From Rhodocyclaceae bacterium (GTDB lineage: Bacteria; Pseudomonadota; Gammaproteobacteria; Burkholderiales; Rhodocyclaceae), in contig VBWA01000009.1 of NCBI GenBank assembly GCA_006218025.1, positions 62,001 to 126,000 on the forward strand: 64,000 nucleotides of DNA. The letters run 5' to 3'. Of the stretch, positions 19,003-31,508 are shown piece after piece. The notes below the pieces were generated by a model. It did not search any database and was not told the origin of the DNA. It saw only the letters and a program-made list of their open reading frames with translations. Position numbers and translations under genes: made by a program. Position 1 is the first letter of the stretch. Each line of letters starts with the position of its first letter.

Positions 19003-22000
19003 ATGAAATCCTATCGGTTACCAAAGAGATATGACGAACATGAATGGTTACAGCAACGCCATTTTGTGACGTCCAGCATGATCGGTGTGCGCGAGTTCGA
19101 GCTTGACTTTTCGGACTGCGAGTGGGTTGACCTGCAGCCGCTTGTTGATTTGTTCCTCGCCTGTGGCGCGATCCTCCGAAACAGCAGCTCACTGCGCTTA
19201 CTGTTTAGTGGCGATGGCCTTTCCCCCACTGGCCGTGTACTTCGCTTCCTTAGAGATACAGGCTTTCTGGAAGCACTCAATAGCCTCGCGCTCGAATCAC
19301 AAGGTTCAGTTACCTACGCTCTGGGATCGAAACAGATCGAAGCAGCCGGCTTCGTTGAGCTTCTTACGACTACTGAGCTCGCTAAGCGAGTTCTAGATAC
19401 AACGACGATTGTTCCTTGCTTGCTGCAAGACGCTAGTCAACTCACCACCAGAGATGATGTATTTGACTACTGCAGAAAGCTACGCGAAAAATATACACAG
19501 AAGAACCGACTGTTAGCTCTACGTGTCCCCACGCCATTGGCGCAAGAGCTAAAACTGTTCTTCAACAGCATGCTTCCCGAACTTGTCGATAACGTTCGCT
19601 TGCACAAGCCCTCTCACCATAGTGCCCAACTGTTCGCGCTCTTTATTCGACTGCGCCGACGAGAGGAACGGACTCTTGGTGTGCAACGCATCGCCGAGTC
19701 CTCCATCATAAGATCAACCAAGTTCCAAACCGCGACGGCACACTTCTGGCAGCACGATACGGTTGAAATTTCATTCGCCGACGCTGGTCCCAGCATCCAG
19801 CAAACCTACGCTTCGTCTTGGCAGCAGACCGACATCAGCAATAAGAAGAAGATTCAACGGCTTCCCACCGGGATACGACTGGACGGCAAGAACGCCGACT
19901 TCACCATATTAAAGAGTGTTCTTACAAAAAATATTTCGCGCCTTGAAGAACATGAAAGAAGTATTCAGGGACTTCCGCTCCATGCAACTGGACTCAACTC
20001 GATCCGAAGATCACTGTTTGGGACAAATTGCGCGTTCGCAGTTCGAAGCGGGCGAAACTACATGATCGCTTTACCTTCCATAGTAAGACACCTAGATGAT
20101 CCGGCGTTTCCTGTCGCAGTTAAGCTCGGCGGCCAGTTTGACTACTCGCCAGGCGTACAGTATCTCTTTCGACTGGCCCCGCTTTGGGAACGCCCTCTGA
20201 GTAGCTGGAAAGATGGATTGCCCAAGGGCGGGCTCGAAAAGGCCGCCGACTGGTGGGTAACCCCTAGAACCGAACTTTTCGAACGAGTCCATCTGGTTTC
20301 AAGTTTTGTCATTCCCGATGGACTGCATAAGGGTGACGTGGTCGTATGCAGAGCCCACCACTTGATTTCGAAACGAGAACTAGTCAAGTACTTGAGAGAC
20401 CTAGCAGTTGCAGGAGTGAATTTGGTCTTTACGGAAATGCCGTCGGCATTTGCTCTTCGAACTTTTAATTACTTGTCTATTCTGTCGGCCGAGATGCATT
20501 TGGTCGTTCCAATAGTTACCTCTAGCTTGCGCGTCGCGATAGTTGCACCGAATTCTAACGAAGCCATCCGAAGCTTTGTCGACGGTGAGCCGAGCAATTC
20601 CTCCTATTGGTGGGAAGATGAAGGTGCGCCAATTCGAACCGTTCGCGACCTCTTCTTGGTGACACGGCAAAGAGATTCGCAGATATTTTGGAATTCAGTC
20701 TTGGCGTCAGATGGCGCTTTTGTCAACGAGCCGGTTAGGTGGTCTCAAGACGCCATTCTGTGTGGTGGATATCTTCTGCTTGATGTCGCGCTGCGAAATC
20801 CAGATTTGCGAAAGCTAATCCGTAGACGATTGACTATGTTGCTCGAGCAACTTGGTATCGACGCTCTCGTCCCATCATCAGATAGGCTCCGAAAGCTTTG
20901 CTCTGAGGTAGCGAGGGAGTTGGGTGAAACTTTCACTGGACAGAAACGATACGCAGTCGTCGGAAGCATAAAGGTTTCGGGGCGAACACTCGCCCGCGCC
21001 GAGCCTCGGAGCCGATCTGGTAGCACCCCTATTCACGTTTCGCTATTTTCCTATCCCCTGCACCTGATCGCCAAGTCGAAGACCGCAGCTCCACTATCTG
21101 GAAACGATCTCGCCATGCGAGCGTTTGATTGGACCGAATCAATCCTGCCGAGAGACGATTGGAAATGGGAAGACGTTGAAAAATCTGTCGCCATCACTCG
21201 CAAGGGCAATACAGAAGAGGTAACCAGAAAGCCTGGCACACCATTCTCGGTCCAGTGTAAACAGAAATCCTCCGAATCATTTCCGGTTTGGCAGCGGCAC
21301 GCGCTTCTTGAGCTTGGACACTTTAGCTATGGGCCGCATCATTACTTTCTTTGGATCGATTTGCGACGCTTTATTCTTGAGCGAAGCCCCGACTGCCAGG
21401 AAATGCTGTTGGATATGCTGTCGGCCCTGAACGCTTGGTCTCCGGATTGGATCTTCTACGAACCGCACGAGACAGCCGAGTTGCTAGTGGATGCTCTTTG
21501 TGAGGTCTCAGCCGACAACCAGATCGGGACAATCGAACGGCAGCGCACCTGGCCAATTGGGCAGGCCGACACCCTCGCCGCGCTCAGGATGAAGACGGCT
21601 GAAATAGGCAAAGAGACAGGATGGCGTACTGCTGTATTTATTGATGATGGTATGGTCACCGGATGTGCAATTAGAAACGCAAAGGCCAAATTGCACGACC
21701 TAGGCTTTGATACCGTGCACAGTCTTGTGGTCCTGGATCGCGACAGCTCCGTTAGAAGAATTCTCAGCGGATTCCGCGGCACGGGAGACCATTTCGCGTG
21801 GTGGAGTCTCTTCGTGGGCCCGGCTGGGAGCGCGAATTCATGCCGTATTTGCCGTGGCGTTGAGATAGTACGCTCAATTGCAGCACAGACCGGTGCCCCG
21901 TCACTGAAAGCCGTATTGAACTATTGGGCGGATGTCTGGACCGAAAGAGACAATTTGGACCGATTCGGTGCTGCAATAGAGAGTAAAAGTTTACAAGGCA

Positions 22001-23502
22001 CCATACGTAAAAAGCATGGCGATTTGAATGTGCGAGAACTGGTCTTGCATACGTCTGAGGCAGTTTGCGCATGGTCGATCGACGTTGCTACCCGACTGGG
22101 ACTACCGGGGTTTCTTCTTGAAGGACCAGCGGGTACCCATGACGTGGGCAATGCTTCAGCAGAATGCCTAGCCGCGGTGCTGTTACACAGCTGGGATGAT
22201 CTTTCCGACACGTACAAGGGCGTTCTACTAGATAGATTGATTGATGAGCTATGGCAAGAGCCTAGGACTGCTGCCCGAGCGTTGCTCTCAGTGGCGATGC
22301 TCTCTTTAACCCACACTGAGTCTCGAGCTCTGCTCACGCGCTTAACGAACAAGATTCGAAAGCACGGCCTCCCAGATTTGGTTACGACGGTATTTTGTTA
22401 CTCCATCGTCCACCGTGTTGCCAGCGATCACCATGAGGCCGAAGCACGACTTTATTCTTGGGAGAGGATGATCAATGAAGGTCGTAACTCCGAGGAAAAA
22501 GTTGCGATCAGGCGAACAAACACACTTGTCGCTGCATTGGCTGCTGCCGACCATAGACGACGCCCAGAAAGGTTTGCTTTGCAGATTCTCGGACTTCCGG
22601 GGCGAGGAACCGTGCACGAGCACCTTTATCATTTGCTGACATTCGTCCGCACCGCCGAACGGTCAAACGTAGAAATCGTTGAAGCACTGGCCCTAATTAG
22701 GGCTTACTTGGAACCGATTCGCGCAAGCGTTTCACAACATAAGTCTCTGTTTGAGGTTGCTCACCTTGACGAGCCACTCGAAAAAGCTTTTTCCGACTTC
22801 GACGCAATCTTCGACCATTCATATGGGGGCAGAATCGATTACGTTACTGAACTTATGCATCGCCTCGAATGCCTCCTCAAAACTAGCTACAAGGGTCTTC
22901 GAAATGTTAGGCAAGTCCTAAGCGCCGAGTACGTTCACTATCTACCGTACGTCGTTAGACTAGCCATCAAGGACATTGTCACGAAACGCCAATGGACTTC
23001 TGAGACTCTGTCAGCAGGAAAAAAAGCAACTGAAGCTCTAACAGAGGGAGACTTTGAGGTGATGTCCCCGCTTACAGATGAAGAGCGGGAACTGTTCGGG
23101 TCGTTTCCACCTGCGGACGGCGCCCGCGAAGACTGCATCGCACGCATGCACAGGAAAGACGTCGCGATCGTCGGGCGCGCAATCGCTTGGCAGGTAATAC
23201 GTGACTGTCTATCAGATGTTAAACATCCAAAGAAAGCGAATCATAGCCTAGACAACAGACGCGGCTGCTATATGAGGATTACCTTTTCCTCGGCGAATGA
23301 TGAGCGCAAGCGGCCATGTGTGACGGTCGCATTTGAAACGGTAACAACGAGAGAGGGATACCAGCGTTCATTTTCCAATACTTGGTCAATCGTAAGCGCA
23401 CTTATGCAGGAAGCCGGTGGGAGCGTCAACGAAGTATTCAATCAAGGGATTTTGCGTAGAGAACTAACATTTCCGGCGCATCGCGTTCGCCAAGGAGGTT
23501 GA
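19003..23502 (+). CDS. STAS-like/GHKL ATPase/phosphoribosyltransferase giant protein, candidate defence sensor
   Basis: A 1499-aa protein that I cannot assign to a named family. Residues about 27-90 look STAS-like (FELDFSDCEWVDLQPLVDLF). Residues about 185-350 carry GHKL (histidine-kinase/Hsp90-type) ATPase features: an N-box-like ELVDN near 194, a G1-like FADAGPSI near 258 and a G2-like ATGLNSI near 328. No DHp-type phosphoacceptor His helix was noticed. Near residue 878, VFIDDGMVTGCAIRNA is a classic phosphoribosyltransferase PRPP-binding motif, preceded by the matching fold segment DWIFYEPHETAELLVDAL. A CRIC Cys pair follows near 950, and the C-terminal 450 residues are mostly helical. The gene reads straight into a receiver-TIR-like gene whose Shine-Dalgarno sequence lies inside this gene's end. 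The fold calls are by eye; a role in antiviral signalling is inference from domain company and AT-richer composition. Confidence 0.6.
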   Translation: MKSYRLPKRYDEHEWLQQRHFVTSSMIGVREFELDFSDCEWVDLQPLVDLFLACGAILRNSSSLRLLFSGDGLSPTGRVLRFLRDTGFLEALNSLALESQGSVTYALGSKQIEAAGFVELLTTTELAKRVLDTTTIVPCLLQDASQLTTRDDVFDYCRKLREKYTQKNRLLALRVPTPLAQELKLFFNSMLPELVDNVRLHKPSHHSAQLFALFIRLRRREERTLGVQRIAESSIIRSTKFQTATAHFWQHDTVEISFADAGPSIQQTYASSWQQTDISNKKKIQRLPTGIRLDGKNADFTILKSVLTKNISRLEEHERSIQGLPLHATGLNSIRRSLFGTNCAFAVRSGRNYMIALPSIVRHLDDPAFPVAVKLGGQFDYSPGVQYLFRLAPLWERPLSSWKDGLPKGGLEKAADWWVTPRTELFERVHLVSSFVIPDGLHKGDVVVCRAHHLISKRELVKYLRDLAVAGVNLVFTEMPSAFALRTFNYLSILSAEMHLVVPIVTSSLRVAIVAPNSNEAIRSFVDGEPSNSSYWWEDEGAPIRTVRDLFLVTRQRDSQIFWNSVLASDGAFVNEPVRWSQDAILCGGYLLLDVALRNPDLRKLIRRRLTMLLEQLGIDALVPSSDRLRKLCSEVARELGETFTGQKRYAVVGSIKVSGRTLARAEPRSRSGSTPIHVSLFSYPLHLIAKSKTAAPLSGNDLAMRAFDWTESILPRDDWKWEDVEKSVAITRKGNTEEVTRKPGTPFSVQCKQKSSESFPVWQRHALLELGHFSYGPHHYFLWIDLRRFILERSPDCQEMLLDMLSALNAWSPDWIFYEPHETAELLVDALCEVSADNQIGTIERQRTWPIGQADTLAALRMKTAEIGKETGWRTAVFIDDGMVTGCAIRNAKAKLHDLGFDTVHSLVVLDRDSSVRRILSGFRGTGDHFAWWSLFVGPAGSANSCRICRGVEIVRSIAAQTGAPSLKAVLNYWADVWTERDNLDRFGAAIESKSLQGTIRKKHGDLNVRELVLHTSEAVCAWSIDVATRLGLPGFLLEGPAGTHDVGNASAECLAAVLLHSWDDLSDTYKGVLLDRLIDELWQEPRTAARALLSVAMLSLTHTESRALLTRLTNKIRKHGLPDLVTTVFCYSIVHRVASDHHEAEARLYSWERMINEGRNSEEKVAIRRTNTLVAALAAADHRRRPERFALQILGLPGRGTVHEHLYHLLTFVRTAERSNVEIVEALALIRAYLEPIRASVSQHKSLFEVAHLDEPLEKAFSDFDAIFDHSYGGRIDYVTELMHRLECLLKTSYKGLRNVRQVLSAEYVHYLPYVVRLAIKDIVTKRQWTSETLSAGKKATEALTEGDFEVMSPLTDEERELFGSFPPADGAREDCIARMHRKDVAIVGRAIAWQVIRDCLSDVKHPKKANHSLDNRRGCYMRITFSSANDERKRPCVTVAFETVTTREGYQRSFSNTWSIVSALMQEAGGSVNEVFNQGILRRELTFPAHRVRQGG

Positions 23503-23503
23503 G

Positions 23504-24445
23504 ATGGCATTGCCACCTACAAGAGGTCACGTACTAGTATGCGATGACAATCAAAAGAACTATGAAAAGCTCAAGAAATATCTAGAGAGTGAGGGATTTG
23601 TTTGCGGGGAGAGAGTTTCTACGGAAACAGAACTTAGGCAGGCACTTACTATCGCCGAGTCAAGCAGGACGTGGTATCAGTTTGTCATGCTAGATATGGA
23701 CTTAAGCTTTAGCGATGAGCCAAAAGCAACTGGTCTTAGTGTCTATCATAGCGTTCTGCCTGACTTCCCAAATGAGACATACATAATTTATTCGTCACAT
23801 GACGCCGACGAGTACCGGGCTGAAATCAATCGGCTTATGTATAGGGATGTCAAATTCGTTCTGTTAGATCAACTATTGAAAGAACGCAATATTCGGTTGC
23901 ATCTATCCGGATTGATTTCGAATTCAAACGCCCAGCGCGTATTCCTCGTTCACGGGCGCAATCATACTTTGAGAGACAAGGTACATCGACTACTCACTGT
24001 CGGATTCGGTTTGGAAGTGGTTGGATGGGAAGATGCCCGTGAGCGAGTAAAGACAGCACGCCCATACATCTACGAAATCGTAATGGCTGGAATCGAGATG
24101 TCACACTTGACCCTTGTGCTGTTTTCCGATGATGAACAGGTGGAACTTAGGGGAAAATTCAAGTCAAGTACTGAAAAGGGCGACAAACGCGAGAGGCGGC
24201 AGGCGCGCGCCAACGTCTTTATCGAAGCTGGCTATGCTATGGGAGTCCGACCTCGCAGGACCCTGTTCCTAGAATGGCCCGAAAGCTCAAGGGCGACTTT
24301 TGAGGCCCCGAGCGATTTTGCCGGAATGCATTCCATTAGATTCGACGAAAGCGCAGGCAAGAGAGATGTCTTGCGTCGTCGCCTCGAGTCTGCACGTTGT
24401 TTGCTCAAGATGAAATCGAACTGGGACACCATACCCCTGAGTTAG
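23504..24445 (+). CDS. Receiver domain fused to TIR-like nucleotide-binding domain, candidate effector
   Basis: A 313-aa two-domain protein. Residues 8-130 resemble a response-regulator receiver: acidic pair Asp14-Asp15, probable phosphoacceptor Asp64 in FVMLDMDL and Ser97/Ser98 in IIYSSHD. The usual C-terminal Lys seems replaced (VKFVLLDQ). Residues 146-305 match the predicted nucleotide-binding TIR-like family seen in CAP12-type effectors: VFLVHGRN at 146, then ARANVFIEAGYAMG with Glu241 and LFLEWPE. Such domains often degrade NAD. The ATG follows a strong AAGGAGG sequence within the end of the upstream gene, one base after its stop, so the two proteins should be made together. By analogy with defensive two-component systems, the upstream GHKL protein may activate the receiver and thereby the effector. 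This is inference. Confidence 0.65.
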   Translation: MALPPTRGHVLVCDDNQKNYEKLKKYLESEGFVCGERVSTETELRQALTIAESSRTWYQFVMLDMDLSFSDEPKATGLSVYHSVLPDFPNETYIIYSSHDADEYRAEINRLMYRDVKFVLLDQLLKERNIRLHLSGLISNSNAQRVFLVHGRNHTLRDKVHRLLTVGFGLEVVGWEDARERVKTARPYIYEIVMAGIEMSHLTLVLFSDDEQVELRGKFKSSTEKGDKRERRQARANVFIEAGYAMGVRPRRTLFLEWPESSRATFEAPSDFAGMHSIRFDESAGKRDVLRRRLESARCLLKMKSNWDTIPLS

Positions 24446-24622: not shown

Positions 24623-27262
24623 TTATCGGACATATTTCATGTTTAGACCCATCTTATAAAGCTGACCAACACGCCACCACCCAGCATAGCCTGGACGGTC
24701 TTCAAACATACGTATCGCCTTCATGCGATGGAGCGATTCACGCACCGATTTTTCACTAAATTTGGTCTTGGCACATAGTTGGGCAACGAGAGCTTCATGC
24801 TCAAAAGGAGTGCTCAAGCCATTAAACGCCGCGACAAACTTCGCTACCTTTGACTGATCATCAGCATCCGCATTCGCGGACGGCTCGTCGAAGTTTAGCG
24901 AAAGTAGGTGCGACAGTTCCTGTTTCGTTTCGCTGATGAACTCGCCCGACGCATCATCGTATGCTTGATTGAGAAGTGTTGAACTGACTCTCCCATCTGA
25001 ATCAATGGGATCGTTTGAGGCTGCGGCCAGACGATCTAGTTTCTTAAGGAATGAGAGGTAGAGACGCGGATAGAACGTAGCCTTATTGGTATCGTCTCCG
25101 CCCGTATCAGAGAAATAGAGCCTTAGGAAGGTGGCAGTAGATAAGTTATTCCGTCTCAGCCTCTGGGGAAAAATCCTTAGTAAGAGCTCTGTCGCGCTCT
25201 GCTCAGACAGCGCACCACGTTCTACACGCGACCATTGTTCAGCAATCTCTTTGCAAACGTCTGGAAACTGATTTTGAATCCAGTCAAGCGTAGGGATGCG
25301 CGAAATTGCAAAGTTAAGAATCGAAGCGGCGCTCCACTTTAATGTAACGCTACGCCCTTCCATCTGCTGTTCGATGTTCTGTATGGAATCAGTCGCAAGA
25401 TCCTCTCGAACGAACGCTCGAAGACCAACCTTGCTGGCAAGTGACGTGTCATTCTGAATCGTGCTCATCAATTCGAACAGCGATCCGACAAACTGTTTGA
25501 TGCTTGCAGCTGGCACTAGAGTTTCTAAGCCATCAATTAGGAAAACTCGGGGGCCGGGCAAATTGACAATAAGAGATTTGATCTTAAGTCGATCTGCTAA
25601 CACCTTAGGGTCCAGATCTTGTGACGCATACTCCGCTAGTACCTGCGGAAGTCCGATATTCGACGGGCGCTCAACGGCAGCCCGGAGAAGCGACCACCAG
25701 AATATGGGCGCATCGAATTTACATTTTTCAAGCCATGCTTGTGCTTCTACCGATTGGCTTTGAAGTGCAGAAGTTCCTTCTTCATCCGCCGCCACCAAAA
25801 TGGGCGTGCCTAGCTGGCGCACATAGAGTTCTTTAACGAGTCGGGTTTTGCCTGTTCCCTTTCGCCCCAATACATAGGAATAAGGATTTCCAGAGAAAAA
25901 GAGCTTCTCGATCTCAGGAATATGGATGAACTGCCCTGGGTCCTTTGCTCCAGATAGCGACGATCCTCCATGTGATTGAACGGTAGATGCTGGAGAAAAG
26001 GATGCCTTGGTTGCGTCCCTTCGACGCCCTAGTGGCAGCGCTAAAGCTTCACGCAGCAAGTTCAACGAGGCAATGTTGTCTGATTGAAGTTTAGATACGC
26101 TTGGCAACGATGGTTCCAGTAGCGCGCGGTCAAGATACCAATCTATCCAATTCAGCGACAAATCCTCAACTGACGCCACGCCACCAGAGGTTTCGAGTAC
26201 ACCTGCGAGTTCGCTCAATAGGGCATCCCGCAGGCGTGCCTCAACAGGTGAAGCCGCCGCTACCGCCGCTCGATTGGGGTCGAGCGAAAAGCTAACGAAG
26301 ACGCCAGGTACAGATGATGTGTTGGAAAATATCGAGCGAACAACCCGCCGCAACTCCGATGGAACGGTCGCAGTGTTGAAGTCAGTTCTAGCAAACACGA
26401 CCGCTGATCCAGGCAGATTGCTCATAAGTGGCAGGACGGAAGATGCGATACCTGTACGATGATCCACCATAACGACATCGTAGTCGTCCCCGTGAGCTGA
26501 CAATGCTTCTTTAAGCCCTATGGCAGCATTCTCGAAAATTCGAGTGTCCAAGGGCGCGGTTGCCACTAGCAGCGCGAAATCTAGATCAGCTCCTTCAATT
26601 CTTGGCCGACACGGCAAAAGATCAATTCGTCCTGTAGATTGGCCGGAGTAGGCACCTGCAATTGGGGAGAAAGTTTCAGCCCACCCACATAAACCCATTA
26701 AAGTCTGTGAGAACTGATCTGCAGATACGCCAAACAAGAGATCCAAAGACGGCGCCTCAATATCAGCGTCGACTAGCAGAACTCGGTGGCCATCATCCGC
26801 CAAGGCCTTCGCCAACAAGGCAAGCACACTTGACCGGCCTTGCCCACCTTTGTAACCATAAAAGTGGACAAACTGCTGTTTAGGGCACGCTACTGAATGG
26901 CGCTGCTTTGAAGAGGTTGAGGTTCCGAGAAACGAGGATACCCAAGTTGGGTGCCGAGCTAACGTGACCCATTTTTGCTTAGCATCCGCCTCTTCGCGCG
27001 TCAGCGGATTCACTGATATTGGCAGCTTGGACATGATTCTCGCAAGAGACACCGGGCGAGCATCGTTTTCTTGTATGAGGAGTTCCTCCAGTCGCGCCAA
27101 GCGAGCATCGTTGTCGAGAAGCGCGAATGTTGAGCTAACCGCATCAACATGAAGTGTAGGTGGAACAAAAGCAATCGTTACCTGTTCCAGCGCAGGTGGC
27201 ATATGGTCATCCCTTGGCGTCGCAAGGGCTTGCAATAGCTCGATAGTTTCGGAAATTGACAT
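24623..27262 (-). CDS. Two-module P-loop NTPase (ParA/MinD-like plus AAA/STAND-like)
   Basis: An 879-aa protein of unknown function. After about 125 residues of mixed helices, a SIMIBI/ParA-type module begins: deviant Walker A in YGYKGGQGRSS near 138, then RVLLVDADIEAPSLDLLFG and VVMVDHRTGIASS. A second P-loop lies near residue 465, GRKGTGKTRL, with a Walker-B-like PRVFLIDGLETL near 565, followed by an alpha-helical C-terminus. Tandem KGGxGR plus AAA/STAND ATPases are common in conflict systems. The start codon overlaps the stop of the small upstream gene (TGATG), so they form a coupled pair. The pair converges on the GHKL/TIR operon with 177 bases between the stops. An in-frame GTG at 27265 is an alternative start. 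Confidence 0.6.
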   Translation of the reverse strand: MSISETIELLQALATPRDDHMPPALEQVTIAFVPPTLHVDAVSSTFALLDNDARLARLEELLIQENDARPVSLARIMSKLPISVNPLTREEADAKQKWVTLARHPTWVSSFLGTSTSSKQRHSVACPKQQFVHFYGYKGGQGRSSVLALLAKALADDGHRVLLVDADIEAPSLDLLFGVSADQFSQTLMGLCGWAETFSPIAGAYSGQSTGRIDLLPCRPRIEGADLDFALLVATAPLDTRIFENAAIGLKEALSAHGDDYDVVMVDHRTGIASSVLPLMSNLPGSAVVFARTDFNTATVPSELRRVVRSIFSNTSSVPGVFVSFSLDPNRAAVAAASPVEARLRDALLSELAGVLETSGGVASVEDLSLNWIDWYLDRALLEPSLPSVSKLQSDNIASLNLLREALALPLGRRRDATKASFSPASTVQSHGGSSLSGAKDPGQFIHIPEIEKLFFSGNPYSYVLGRKGTGKTRLVKELYVRQLGTPILVAADEEGTSALQSQSVEAQAWLEKCKFDAPIFWWSLLRAAVERPSNIGLPQVLAEYASQDLDPKVLADRLKIKSLIVNLPGPRVFLIDGLETLVPAASIKQFVGSLFELMSTIQNDTSLASKVGLRAFVREDLATDSIQNIEQQMEGRSVTLKWSAASILNFAISRIPTLDWIQNQFPDVCKEIAEQWSRVERGALSEQSATELLLRIFPQRLRRNNLSTATFLRLYFSDTGGDDTNKATFYPRLYLSFLKKLDRLAAASNDPIDSDGRVSSTLLNQAYDDASGEFISETKQELSHLLSLNFDEPSANADADDQSKVAKFVAAFNGLSTPFEHEALVAQLCAKTKFSEKSVRESLHRMKAIRMFEDRPGYAGWWRVGQLYKMGLNMKYVR

Positions 27263-27705
27263 CACAATTGAACTCCTAGCGTAGCGCCATGTGTGACTAG
27301 AAAAACACGCAAATTATTGCAAGTCGCTTCAAGTGCAAAGACGCGCTTAATAGGTGTTTCATCTACTCCACCCCAATCCCCATGCTGCCTGCTATACCTA
27401 ATGAAAGGGTAATTGTGCCCGGGTACGCCGATTGGGCTCCCTTGCTTTCCTTGGCATGTAATTGCGCTTAGATCCGTTTTTAACTGCGCAGAGAATGATG
27501 AAAGTTGCGCTGATACGACTGACGTCGGAGCCATTGCATTCGCAGCGAATTGGAGCATTGTAGGAACATCATGCCCGCCATTCTGAGCCGGGATATTGGC
27601 ATCTTTCAACGCGAGTTCTATCGCAACAAGTATGCAATAGGCACTTAGCAGAGGTTCTTGCGTTGCCGGATTCAGAAAAGCTCTTTTGTTTGATGTAAAA
27701 GACAT
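27262..27705 (-). CDS. Small protein with HEPN-like features, partner of the P-loop protein
   Basis: A 147-aa protein from ATG 27705, or 160 aa if the TTG at 27744 is used; neither has a clear Shine-Dalgarno sequence. The segment LLSAYCILVAIELALKD followed by GGHDVPTML resembles the helix-GHD layout of HEPN-type domains, but I see no RX4-6H ribonuclease motif, and the middle contains Gly/Pro-rich NYPFIRYSRQHGDWGG. It is the first gene of a two-gene operon with the tandem P-loop NTPase. Function is unknown; a regulatory or sensor partner is plausible from the coupling. Confidence 0.5.
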   Translation of the reverse strand: MSFTSNKRAFLNPATQEPLLSAYCILVAIELALKDANIPAQNGGHDVPTMLQFAANAMAPTSVVSAQLSSFSAQLKTDLSAITCQGKQGSPIGVPGHNYPFIRYSRQHGDWGGVDETPIKRVFALEATCNNLRVFLVTHGATLGVQL

Positions 27706-27744
27706 ATCCGAAAATATTCCCAGTAAATCTTCCCATGGTACCAA

Positions 27745-27982
27745 TGGAGAAGCCTGATAGATATCGATTGTCTCACGATGTCCTGGCCTTACAGGAATGG
27801 AATTACATATATGGGATTATTTTGTGCTTTGCCTCCTAGAAGTCTTCGACGACCGACTGCACTCCGGAGTATTGTAGGCTGCATAGATTCAGTAGCCATT
27901 GATTACTGAGCATATGTTCGAGAGCCGCGTTAGCCAAGCAACGCCCACTCGACTGGAATTCAGGAACTATCCGCCCCAACCA
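27745..27982. other. AT-rich upstream region of the small-protein/P-loop operon
   Basis: No coding sequence was found. The region is AT-rich near the operon (for example ATTACATATATGGGATTATT at 27802-27821), which suits a promoter firing leftwards. No specific operator could be identified. GC-rich sequence resumes near 27980, giving the right edge of the low-GC island. Confidence 0.4.
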
Positions 27983-28216
27983 TCACGCCGCCCTCAACCC
28001 AGATATTTCCCGCGCCTCCCCCGCCGTCGCCGGCCGCCGCCCGTAACGGTCGCACACATCCACGATCTTCGTCACCAGCTCGGCATTGCTCGCCGCCGGC
28101 CGCGCCGGGTCGAAGTGCAGCTTGTCTTTCAGGGCGGTGCGGCAATGGCCGCCCGCTTCGAGGCACCACTGCTTGACCTCGAACTGATAACGCGAGCTGC
28201 CGGCGGCGACCCGGAT
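27983..28216 (-). pseudogene. C-terminal remnant of a BKACE (DUF849) enzyme
   Basis: Directly after the fic stop codon and in the same frame, about 77 codons encode a sequence ending NAELVTKIVDVCDRYGRR and ATAGEAREISGL. This matches the C-terminus typical of beta-keto acid cleavage enzymes (3-keto-5-aminohexanoate cleavage enzyme family). There is no start codon and no N-terminal two thirds of the enzyme, so it is a gene remnant, probably left by the rearrangement that brought fic here. Confidence 0.6.
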
Positions 28217-29260
28217 TCATTCATACCAGACCCCCCGTCCCGCCCCGTGCTGCTTTAGCTGCCCCTGCTTGACCAAGGCCCGGAAATGCTGCTTGAGTGT
28301 GTTGCGATTGCCGCCGGTCAGCCGGATCGCATCGCCCATCGTCACGCGTCCGTGTTCCCTCGCGAACTCGACGATCTGCAGCGAGAGTGCGGGCAATGCG
28401 GCCAGCACGATTTTTTCGCGTTCCACCTTGCGATTCAGGCGTCGCACCTGCTCGGCCAGCGCGCGCAGGAAGAAGACCAGCCAGGGCTGCCAGTTCGGAG
28501 CTTCGGTGCGGATCGTGCCTTGCGTCTGCCGCAGCGCGAGGTAATAGGCTTCCTTGCTCTGCTCGATCACGCTTTCCAGCGAGCTGTAGGGCACATAGGC
28601 GTAGCCGGCCTGCAGCAGCAACAGCGTGGTCAGCACCCGGCTCAGGCGTCCGTTGCCGTCCTGAAAAGGGTGGATCTCCAGAAACACCACGACCCAGATG
28701 CCGATCAGCAGCAGGGGGTGGAGCCGCGCGGCGGCACGCTCGTCGTTGAACCACGTGACCAGTTCAGTCATCAGGCGGGGCGTATCGAAGGGCGTAGCGG
28801 TTTCGAACACCACGCCCAGCTGCTTGCCGTCCTCGTCGAAGGCGACCACGCTGTTGGTGGATGTCTTGTAGTTGCCCCGATGCATGGCGTCTTTCTCGCT
28901 ATAAGTCAGCAGATCACGGTGCAACTGCTTGATGTGGTTCTCGGTCAGCGCGATGTCCGGCCAGGACGAGAAGACCAGTTCCATGACCTCGGCGTAGCCT
29001 GCCACCTCCTGTTCGTCGCGGGTGGCGAAGGACTTGATCTGCAGCCTGGACAGCAGACGCTCGACTTCACGGTCCGACAGCCGGCTGCCCTCGATGCGGG
29101 TGGACGAGCCGATGCTCTCGATGGTGGCGACGCGCAGCAGGGCCGAAAGCCGGTCCGGCGCCAGGGCGCCGAGCGCGCGCCAAGCCCCCTTGAACTCATC
29201 GATGCCGGCGATGAGGCCAAGAATCTCGGGGGTGATCTGGATGGCGTCGGAGCGGATCAT
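28217..29260 (-). CDS. Fic-domain protein (predicted AMPylator) with N-terminal inhibitory motif
   Basis: A 347-aa Fic protein, expected to transfer AMP or a related group from a nucleotide to target proteins. The catalytic loop HPFQDGNGR lies near residue 196 and is intact. The inhibitory motif (S/T)xxxE(G/N) is present as STRIEG near residue 58, N-terminal to the Fic core, which makes it a self-inhibited class II Fic protein. The C-terminus (about 275-347) looks like a winged helix (VTMGDAIRLTGGNRNTLKQHF). It starts at ATG 29260; an upstream GTG-like extension adds little. An 88-base segment of this gene recurs at 31388-31475. Small Fic proteins of this type are often on mobile islands. Confidence 0.9.
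   Translation of the reverse strand: MIRSDAIQITPEILGLIAGIDEFKGAWRALGALAPDRLSALLRVATIESIGSSTRIEGSRLSDREVERLLSRLQIKSFATRDEQEVAGYAEVMELVFSSWPDIALTENHIKQLHRDLLTYSEKDAMHRGNYKTSTNSVVAFDEDGKQLGVVFETATPFDTPRLMTELVTWFNDERAAARLHPLLLIGIWVVVFLEIHPFQDGNGRLSRVLTTLLLLQAGYAYVPYSSLESVIEQSKEAYYLALRQTQGTIRTEAPNWQPWLVFFLRALAEQVRRLNRKVEREKIVLAALPALSLQIVEFAREHGRVTMGDAIRLTGGNRNTLKQHFRALVKQGQLKQHGAGRGVWYE
28546..28633. repeat. 88-base segment duplicated at 31388-31475
   Basis: This stretch of fic, starting AGGCTTCCTTGCTCTG, reappears in the same orientation at 31388-31475 with only a few mismatches. The second copy is a detached fic fragment. Confidence 0.9.
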
Positions 29261-29414
29261 GGCAACCAATACTACACCCATTTACACCCATTCTGTCATG
29301 GGCGGTCGGCGCATTGATCAAGGCATACACGGCGGCCGGTGTCTCGCCAAGGGGCAGGGATCACGTCTGAGTACGGCTCAGAGTCTGTGAATTCATTGGC
29401 ACCGGCCTCCCCAA

Positions 29415-31172: not shown

Positions 31173-31508
31173 TTAGCAATAATGCGAACTTTCGTCAATG
31201 CGGCTTCGAGTCGACGTCAGGCCGCTTTGGAATACAGCGCGGTTTCCAGTTCGCGGATGGCGGCAAGCTAGTTCTGCTTGCCGCCGAAGAGCTTGACGAT
31301 CGGCGTTGGCATTGACCAGCGCCTGGCGCATGCGCTCGGCGTGGTCGATGTTTTCGCAGAAGACGATGGTCTTGACGAAGCGGTCGGAGGCTTCCTTGCT
31401 CTGCTCGATCACGCTTTCCAGCGAGCTGTAGGGCACATAGGCATAGCCGGCCTGCAGCAACAGGAGTGTGGTCAGTGCCCAGAGTCGGCGCTGGCGACAC
31501 GGCGGCAC
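31173..31508 (-). pseudogene. Chimeric debris: fic fragment joined to type I restriction HsdR-like fragment
   Basis: The open frame reads a fic-identical stretch (QAGYAYVPYSSLESVIEQSK) and then, in frame, KTIVFCENIDHAERMRQALV. The latter resembles the helicase region of type I restriction R subunits. In another frame downstream, KLFGGKQN, a TAG, then LAAIRELETALYSKAA looks like a C-terminal tail of a restriction-modification gene with an in-frame stop. None of these pieces is complete. This is a scar of recombination between two defence-related genes, not a working gene. Confidence 0.65.
31388..31475. repeat. Second copy of the 88-base fic segment
   Basis: Same orientation as 28546-28633, with only a few mismatches. 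Confidence 0.9.

Follow-up and report, generated by a model that had tools for sequence, protein, structure and literature searches.

The closest described counterparts of the gene pair reported here are assemblies of a small protein and P-loop nucleoside triphosphatases (NTPases). Anantharaman et al. (2013, PMC3710099) postulated that the dyad of the HEPN protein MAE_18760 and a ParA/Soj-like ATPase is a toxin-antitoxin pair, in which the HEPN protein would be an RNase toxin and the ATPase a nucleotide-dependent antitoxin. A second counterpart is PDC-M28 of PADLOC (PDC stands for phage defence candidate; PMC11514479), which is composed of a small protein (A), a KGGVGR-type NTPase (B) and a Sll1717-type NTPase (C). 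PDC-M28 and KGGVGR were named in no paper found in our literature searches, and sll1717 was not found in the papers checked. In a 64,000-nucleotide stretch of Rhodocyclaceae bacterium DNA (contig VBWA01000009.1, positions 62,001 to 126,000; hereafter the window), two overlapping genes, D and C, likewise encode a small upstream protein and two NTPase domains. On the evidence, D-C is an independent two-gene module, a variant of a known candidate type (the PDC-M28 relatives) and a real and unusual pair. We further propose, with confidence evenly divided between right and wrong, that D-C is a self-contained conflict module (most likely anti-phage, of the abortive-infection type) on a divergent branch of the dyads formed by small proteins and KGGVGR NTPases, some of which PADLOC lists as PDC-M28, with D a PF05168/AbiV-like HEPN effector and C a controller driven by nucleoside triphosphates (NTPs).

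Gene D (27262..27705, minus strand), the first gene of the pair, encodes a probably HEPN-like, small helical protein of 147 amino acids, and gene C (24623..27265, minus strand), the second, encodes a double P-loop NTPase of 880 amino acids. The reading frame of D opens at a TTG at 27744, and the ATG at 27705 was taken as its start because the starts of the homologues in loci L015 and L016 align there. C begins with GTG at 27265, followed by an ATG at 27262, and the overlap between the stop of D and the start of C (27262..27265, minus strand) reads GTGA, or TGATG if the second start codon is counted; in the junction sequence, TTGTGATGTC, the TGA of D overlaps the ATG of C. The pair is therefore coupled through TGATG just as the first-pass annotation of this DNA had described it. 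Full-length homologues of C are present in L013 (61%), L015 (72%) and L016 (54%), and in both L015 (Leptothrix sp. C29) and L016 (a Comamonadaceae metagenome-assembled genome) D is followed by C with overlapping ends, through the same TGATG in L015 and through ATGA in L016. The coupled gene order is thus kept in homologues, and D and C form a unit. The surroundings of the two loci are a transposase downstream of the pair, beside C, and an Mrr-type gene upstream of D (Mrr_N, E 2.9e-23) whose frame ends within the catalytic domain (Mrr_cat positions 2-59 of 115) in L015, and a class I (E and Q) tRNA-synthetase gene upstream and a DUF924 gene downstream in L016.

The D-C form is rare. At E ≤ 1e-3, C matched something in 74 of 101 genomes (the source genome and relatives), and the listed matches outside its own locus were partial and mostly to the ParA-like region. 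At strict cut-offs, C was found in one of 369 genomes of the class (E ≤ 1e-12), one of 398 of the phylum (E ≤ 1e-15; these two sets may overlap) and one of 399 of the Leptothrix family (E ≤ 1e-20), each time the genome already known to carry D-C, namely the source genome in the first two sets and the Leptothrix seed genome in the third. A pattern scan for C gave two loci from 109 stretches of genome contigs and one in viral contigs, where one D-type sequence, partial, was also found; a scan with D alone gave 45 genome-contig stretches and two viral-contig stretches, none of which was confirmed. Neither the 72,556 plasmid records nor the 50,697 phage records searched contained a match to C at E ≤ 1e-5. 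A plasmid-partition or housekeeping ParA role for C was considered and rejected, as full-length C turned up only in scattered genomes and in none of these plasmid or phage records.

By its profile matches, C joins two domains in one protein, a ParA-like domain of the KGGVGR type and an ATPase of the Sll1717 type. The first region, a ParA/MinD-like domain of the SIMIBI class at residues 131-295 (26381..26875, minus strand), is matched by NCBIfam NF047398 (KGGVGR-motif AAA; E 4.6e-22, 79.3 bits) and by Pfam AAA_31 (E 9.7e-9), and the Pfam models over their cut-offs are all of ParA type (AAA_31, ParA, CbiA and CBP_BcsQ). The second, at residues 560-853 (24707..25588, minus strand), is matched by NF047389 (Sll1717 P-loop ATPase; E 1.9e-16, 60.2 bits). 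Both domains are thereby recognised, although C scores under both curated cut-offs (90 and 75 bits, respectively) and has Q for V in its KGGVGR motif. The larger protein had been noted to contain two P-loops, and both are present: KGGQGRSS at residues 139-146 (26828..26851, minus strand), with Arg in place of the canonical Walker A Lys, and GRKGTGKT at residues 467-474 (25844..25867, minus strand), upstream of the stretch matched by NF047389. R144 of the first and G467, G470, G472 and K473 of the second are invariant in 14/14 aligned relatives, among which the first Lys of KGG varies (Arg in L084-L087), and because these key residues are invariant the two P-loops are constrained and not chance motifs. 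A Walker B-like DGL after P-loop 2 is invariant in 12/12 sequences of the C-terminal alignment. As to a possible STAND domain in the second ATPase, Pfam NACHT matched C weakly and below its cut-off (E 0.034), and a profile of the second ATPase matched PDB sequences at best with E 0.028 (an AAA ATPase), followed by DAP3 (E 0.077). Residues ~445-635 of a low-confidence model of C gave Z up to 7.9 with ORC/Cdc6-type AAA+ proteins and up to 7.2 with RdrA, a list that, coming from a poor model, is only a hint.

Comparison with the PADLOC models places D-C beside PDC-M28. Window C matched PDC-M28B with E 2.9e-14 (51 bits) over 53 residues only; its homologues matched the same model, which has no curated cut-off, with E 2.9e-16 over 51 residues (L015) and E 1.1e-12 over residues 124-292 (L016). 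At E ≤ 1, PDC-M28C matched neither window C nor the L015 and L016 homologues, in contrast to L084 and L086, which it does match, and PDC-M28A matched neither D nor its L015 and L016 homologues. D-C thus differs from PDC-M28 in that D does not match the A model, C does not match the C model and the B match is partial. Because C hits PDC-M28B over 53 residues and not PDC-M28C, and D hits nothing, D-C is, by these models, a relative and not a member of PDC-M28. Fusion of the two NTPases is shared with the pair at L081, whose small protein matches PDC-M28A (6.8e-46) and whose single large protein, in which B and C are fused as in window C, matches both PDC-M28B (2.1e-153) and PDC-M28C (8e-103).

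We then compared D-C with more distant KGGVGR proteins. NF047398 matched over its cut-off in 31 of 150 same-phylum genomes, and 15 regions from 11 genomes were chosen from the matches by frame length (876-996 amino acids) and score; at least 6 further matches in this length range lie outside the set. A second P-loop is present in 15/15 of these loci. In 14/15 the KGGVGR frame is directly preceded or overlapped by an intact small open reading frame (ORF), and the fifteenth, L078, has a fragment of ~105 amino acids that matches the partner profile with E 8e-4. The proteins nearest to C outside the D-C family, by profile A3, are those of L084-L087 (E 7e-19 to 1.5e-17), two of which (those of L084 and L087) can be aligned with C at 24% over residues 133-654. 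A profile search for HEPN domains, the check proposed in the first-pass annotation, gave its answer here and not on D: for the partners of these four proteins PF05168 is the best Pfam match in 4/4 (E 9.1e-8 to 1.1e-3), over the cut-off in 2/4. A protein that bridges the two kinds of models is the partner at L065, which matches both PF05168 (E 2.1e-5, over the cut-off) and PDC-M28A (6.7e-8); L065 falls outside the group nearest to C, and its 690-amino-acid frame lacks a second P-loop in a motif search. A hidden Markov model (HMM) of eight PF05168 proteins ranked 29 upstream partners above 886 length-matched ORFs with an area under the curve (AUC) of 0.96, and since the sequences are related, the p-value of this ranking is not one of independent events. 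The 29 comprise the partners other than the L078 fragment and the 249-amino-acid ORF at L068, at loci that have a partner, and the background was drawn from outside the PF05168 loci L028-L044 and the repeat loci.

Several observations on the wider KGGVGR group were made along the way. Some same-phylum genomes (for example G510, G541 and G514) contain several KGGVGR-type genes, with frames of ~450 and ~900 amino acids, and where a domain precedes the KGG motif, the gene upstream tends to encode a small HEPN-like or PDC-M28A-like partner. ORFs for CheY-like receivers, identified by motif reading, lie ~270-290 nt downstream of the KGGVGR gene at L081 (1569-2018) and L083 (6981-7379).

D is probably HEPN-like, a reading that draws on its fold and its gene position. 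The AlphaFold model of D, built with three sequences (predicted template modelling score, pTM, 0.71), is helical, with four main helices and a short N-terminal one, and re-alignment of this model with 180 chains placed HEPN domains at ranks 1-4 (Z 6.9, 6.1, 5.7 and 5.0); the fourth, 2q00, is named as HEPN in PMC3710099. In position, D is equivalent to the PF05168-like partners encoded beside L084-L087. The GHD motif, on which the earlier HEPN guess had been based, lies at residues 44-46 (27568..27576, minus strand) and is kept in 3/3 full-length close homologues, window D included, as is the RY motif at residues 103-104 (27394..27399, minus strand), which contains the candidate Arg of the HEPN motif. 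In a MAFFT alignment of the three D-type proteins with five HEPN partners, Y23, E30, L33, K34, G44, H45, D78, L79, R103, Y104 and L132 are invariant in 8/8; the alignment opens a gap of ~23 residues, between the DL and RY motifs. HEPN-T (PF05168) and AbiV proteins, as described in PMC3710099, keep the Arg of RX4-6H, lose its His (often so in PF05168) and have another conserved His upstream; D has the same features and shares with the PF05168/AbiV type an E..LK helix followed by GHD, and its H45 and R103, judged from the alignment, appear to correspond to this alternative site. The PF05168 proteins presented in that paper are standalone or fused to MNT, and D differs from them in being paired with C. 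Scored with the eight-protein PF05168 HMM, the D-type proteins ranked modestly: L015 was equalled or exceeded by 5 background ORFs and none of 1,000 shuffles, L016 by 31 ORFs and 60 shuffles, and window D by 39 ORFs and 17 shuffles. Searches of PDB sequences gave a ribosomal match for D (E 1.3), judged to be chance, and two designed helical proteins for D with the five partners (E 0.49 and 1), none of which was retained.

The resemblance to the MAE_18760 dyad can be stated in the same terms. In that dyad, as presented in PMC3710099, the HEPN gene adjoins a gene for a SIMIBI ParA-like ATPase and the two are predicted to be effector and controller, an arrangement that D-C shares; in contrast, the MAE_18760 HEPN domain keeps RX4-6H and D does not, D has no Pfam match, and window C adds a fused second P-loop ATPase.

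A number of results weigh against the proposal of a HEPN effector controlled by C. D matched no model of Pfam, NCBIfam, PADLOC or PHROGs at the limits used, and Pfam gave no match at E ≤ 10 for 3/3 D-type proteins (window, L015 and L016). The D model has a predicted local distance difference test score (pLDDT) of 70, and its best Foldseek match, a sacsin HEPN domain, is weak (E 2.8). In the re-alignment p130Cas, at rank 5, ties with rank 4 (Z 5.0), and Z values below ~13, the range in which D's best value falls, are common for helical bundles. Compared alone with PF05168 by hhalign, the D-type proteins gave a weak match (probability 2.8%, P 0.016); together with the five HEPN partners they gave P 0.00035 (probability 37%) against the PF05168 set, a value that is not evidence on D alone because the five partners match PF05168 by themselves. 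Partner profile A5 gave D no support (P 0.26; window D received no score, and the L015 and L016 proteins scored at the level of the background), so that D is linked to the distant partners by position and fold and not by sequence, and a D profile separated 26 other partners weakly (AUC 0.69). Classical RX4-6H is not a conserved feature of the three D-type proteins, because the R103-X4-H108 of window D is replaced by R-X3-H in L015 and no His follows in L016. Among 17 distant partners searched in Pfam, 5 matched PF05168, one (L051) matched HEPN_AbiV below the cut-off (E 0.017) and 11 had no HEPN match, and the partner at L045 is a clear PDC-M28A (3.9e-52) with no HEPN match. The partner profile matched nothing at E ≤ 10 at 11 KGGVGR loci with an N-terminal motif (L057, L058 and L066-L074), from which we conclude that the small partner accompanies those KGGVGR forms in which another domain precedes KGG. 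The short PDC-M28B match of window C and its failure to match PDC-M28C belong here as well, as does the model of C, whose pLDDT of 49 is poor and which was not used as a structure. Finally, our literature searches found no experiment on any member of the D-C and PDC-M28 group.

Two uncultivated phage contigs suggest that some phages carry D-C in a cargo site, with each contig holding one half of the arrangement. L017 (4934-8317) encodes the small terminase subunit, the large terminase subunit and a late activator, followed by the start of a D-type gene, of which the first ~52-61 residues precede a low-complexity stretch at the contig end. L013 (1-7420) encodes C, a portal, a protease, a head decoration protein and the major head protein. 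Because the L013 record opens precisely with the start codon of C, the gene upstream of C is not visible and the record, which has no match to D, may have been trimmed there. We do not claim that L013 and L017 come from a single type of phage in which the D-C cassette is intact. In the Achromobacter phage AchV4 the genes for terminase, joining protein and portal are contiguous with nothing extra, and in phage KLER1-1 the gap after the terminase contains two hypothetical genes and a methyltransferase gene on the other strand.

How D-C might act can be outlined as follows. C would bind D and hold it silent; on sensing a phage cue, C would change nucleotide state in both its ParA-like and its AAA+/STAND-like domain; and D, then released or assembled, would bind or cut RNA, possibly using R103 with the upstream H45 in place of the classical RX4-6H pair, so that the infected cell would stop phage production. 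We infer a role in defence also from settings that resemble those of defence genes, namely the truncated Mrr-type gene beside D in L015 and the suggested phage cargo position (L013 and L017). A broader form of this proposal would unite D-C and the PDC-M28 dyads in a single family of HEPN immune modules gated by NTP switches, with SIMIBI and AAA+/STAND-like ATPases in series on one polypeptide, a non-classical H/R HEPN site, and carriage by temperate phages between terminase and portal to exclude rivals; we regard this as tentative, and would sooner expect it to fail than to hold in full.

The alternative that survives best reverses the roles of the two proteins: D would be a HEPN adaptor without catalytic activity, binding nucleotide or RNA as a sensor or substrate-binding subunit, and C, with its AAA+/STAND-like and ParA-like domains, would be the effector or motor. 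RX4-6H is not conserved in D (R-X4-H is present by letter in one of three D-type proteins), Anantharaman et al. (2013, PMC3710099) describe a potential role in binding substrates or RNA for some HEPN domains that lack the motif, and C is large with a canonical second P-loop, all of which would suit an adaptor. The invariance of R103 and H45 in D and the five HEPN partners, however, is what would be expected of the alternative H/R site proposed for PF05168/AbiV proteins (PMC3710099), and three profile libraries found no nuclease, TIR or other effector domain in C. We consider an adaptor role for D unlikely, yet the most serious competitor to the effector reading.

Less probable again, and in our judgement doubtful, is a main role for D-C in addiction: C would be the antitoxin of a toxin-antitoxin module that serves to stabilise mobile elements, and any defence would be incidental. 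A toxin-antitoxin role is the published prediction for dyads of HEPN and ParA/Soj-like proteins (PMC3710099), and the phage-borne position suggested by L013 and L017 and the transposase beside C in L015 agree with it. Against it, C is a protein of 880 amino acids with two conserved NTPase cores, and PADLOC includes models of related dyads among its defence candidates. Usual antitoxins are far smaller than C.

The remaining alternative concerns the neighbouring genes. C ends at 24623 (minus strand), 177 bp from the end of gene B (23504-24445, plus strand), and the D-C pair is therefore tail-to-tail with the A/B (GHKL/TIR) unit, as the first-pass annotation had noted; it had asked whether D-C is a second defence system or part of one four-gene system. 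The observation of a shared AT-richer island also held, with 49-51% G+C in 2-kb windows at 22-28 kb and 51-54% at 18-22 kb (roughly 50-54% across the island) compared with 59-69% beyond the island and its edges. We surveyed the four genes for co-occurrence and found a homologue of A or B (tblastn, E ≤ 1e-3) in the fetched flanks of 0/18 distinct C-type loci (the 15 distant loci, L013, L015 and L016); these flanks range from none (upstream of L013) to ~11 kb a side, with 0.2-1.7 kb at L076 and L089, and very diverged homologues could escape the search. Conversely, a relative of A in L025 (E 4e-19) lies on an 11.7-kb contig that carries neither C nor D. Among 274 genomes of the class, A itself was found in the source genome and one other, a scan of viral contigs with A alone gave two stretches, none confirmed, and plasmid records contained no protein A and 14 records with B, none covering 80% of the query. 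INDEPENDENCE from A/B is supported, since both units occur alone, in small numbers, and D-C is probably not part of the TIR-containing A/B unit. Of the earlier suggestions, the one of a separate unit is thus upheld (D-C without A/B in L015 and L016, and a relative of A without C or D), with its defence role inferred. Of the two observations named there as refuting, the first, independent occurrence of the pairs, was made in small numbers, and the second, a small protein with no HEPN similarity, was not. A single four-gene system, for which the adjacency and convergence of D-C and A/B within one low-G+C island speak, is very improbable, because the genes did not co-occur in the loci and flanks searched and the two units lie on opposite strands.

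As to the A/B unit itself (19003-24445), A is a protein of 1,499 amino acids with no confident Pfam match, and B is receiver-like with a CAP12/PCTIR TIR domain (PF10137, E 2.4e-21) and resembles PADLOC PDC-S35 (E 2.2e-13). In L025 (553-6814) the relative of A is split in two ORFs, which are followed by receiver-like and metallophosphatase-like ORFs instead of a receiver-TIR protein; these labels come from motif reading, and Pfam finds neither a receiver nor a phosphatase in the two ORFs. An exchange of effectors in the A/B system is a possible explanation of this layout.

Other features of the window can be given briefly. On the far side of D, a 93-nt piece of a Fic gene is duplicated (28546-28638 and 31388-31480; 92% identity), the copies lying 2.8 kb apart with a PIN-domain (VapC-like) gene between them, and when the flank at 27900-29300 was searched in 31 genomes, the Fic gene was present in some. 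ARAGORN found no tRNA in the window, and no RNA family reached gathering scores in the island. A promoter scan gave one site compared with a mean of 3.2 in shuffled sequence, and we therefore claim no promoter.

The D-C pair links PDC-M28, a candidate for which we found no published test, to the HEPN fold and to the 2013 prediction of HEPN-ParA dyads, and in doing so offers a mechanism that can be tested. With its two genes, the D-C branch is compact enough to be placed on one plasmid. If the proposal is true, control of a HEPN effector by a tandem of two unlike ATPases would be unusual.

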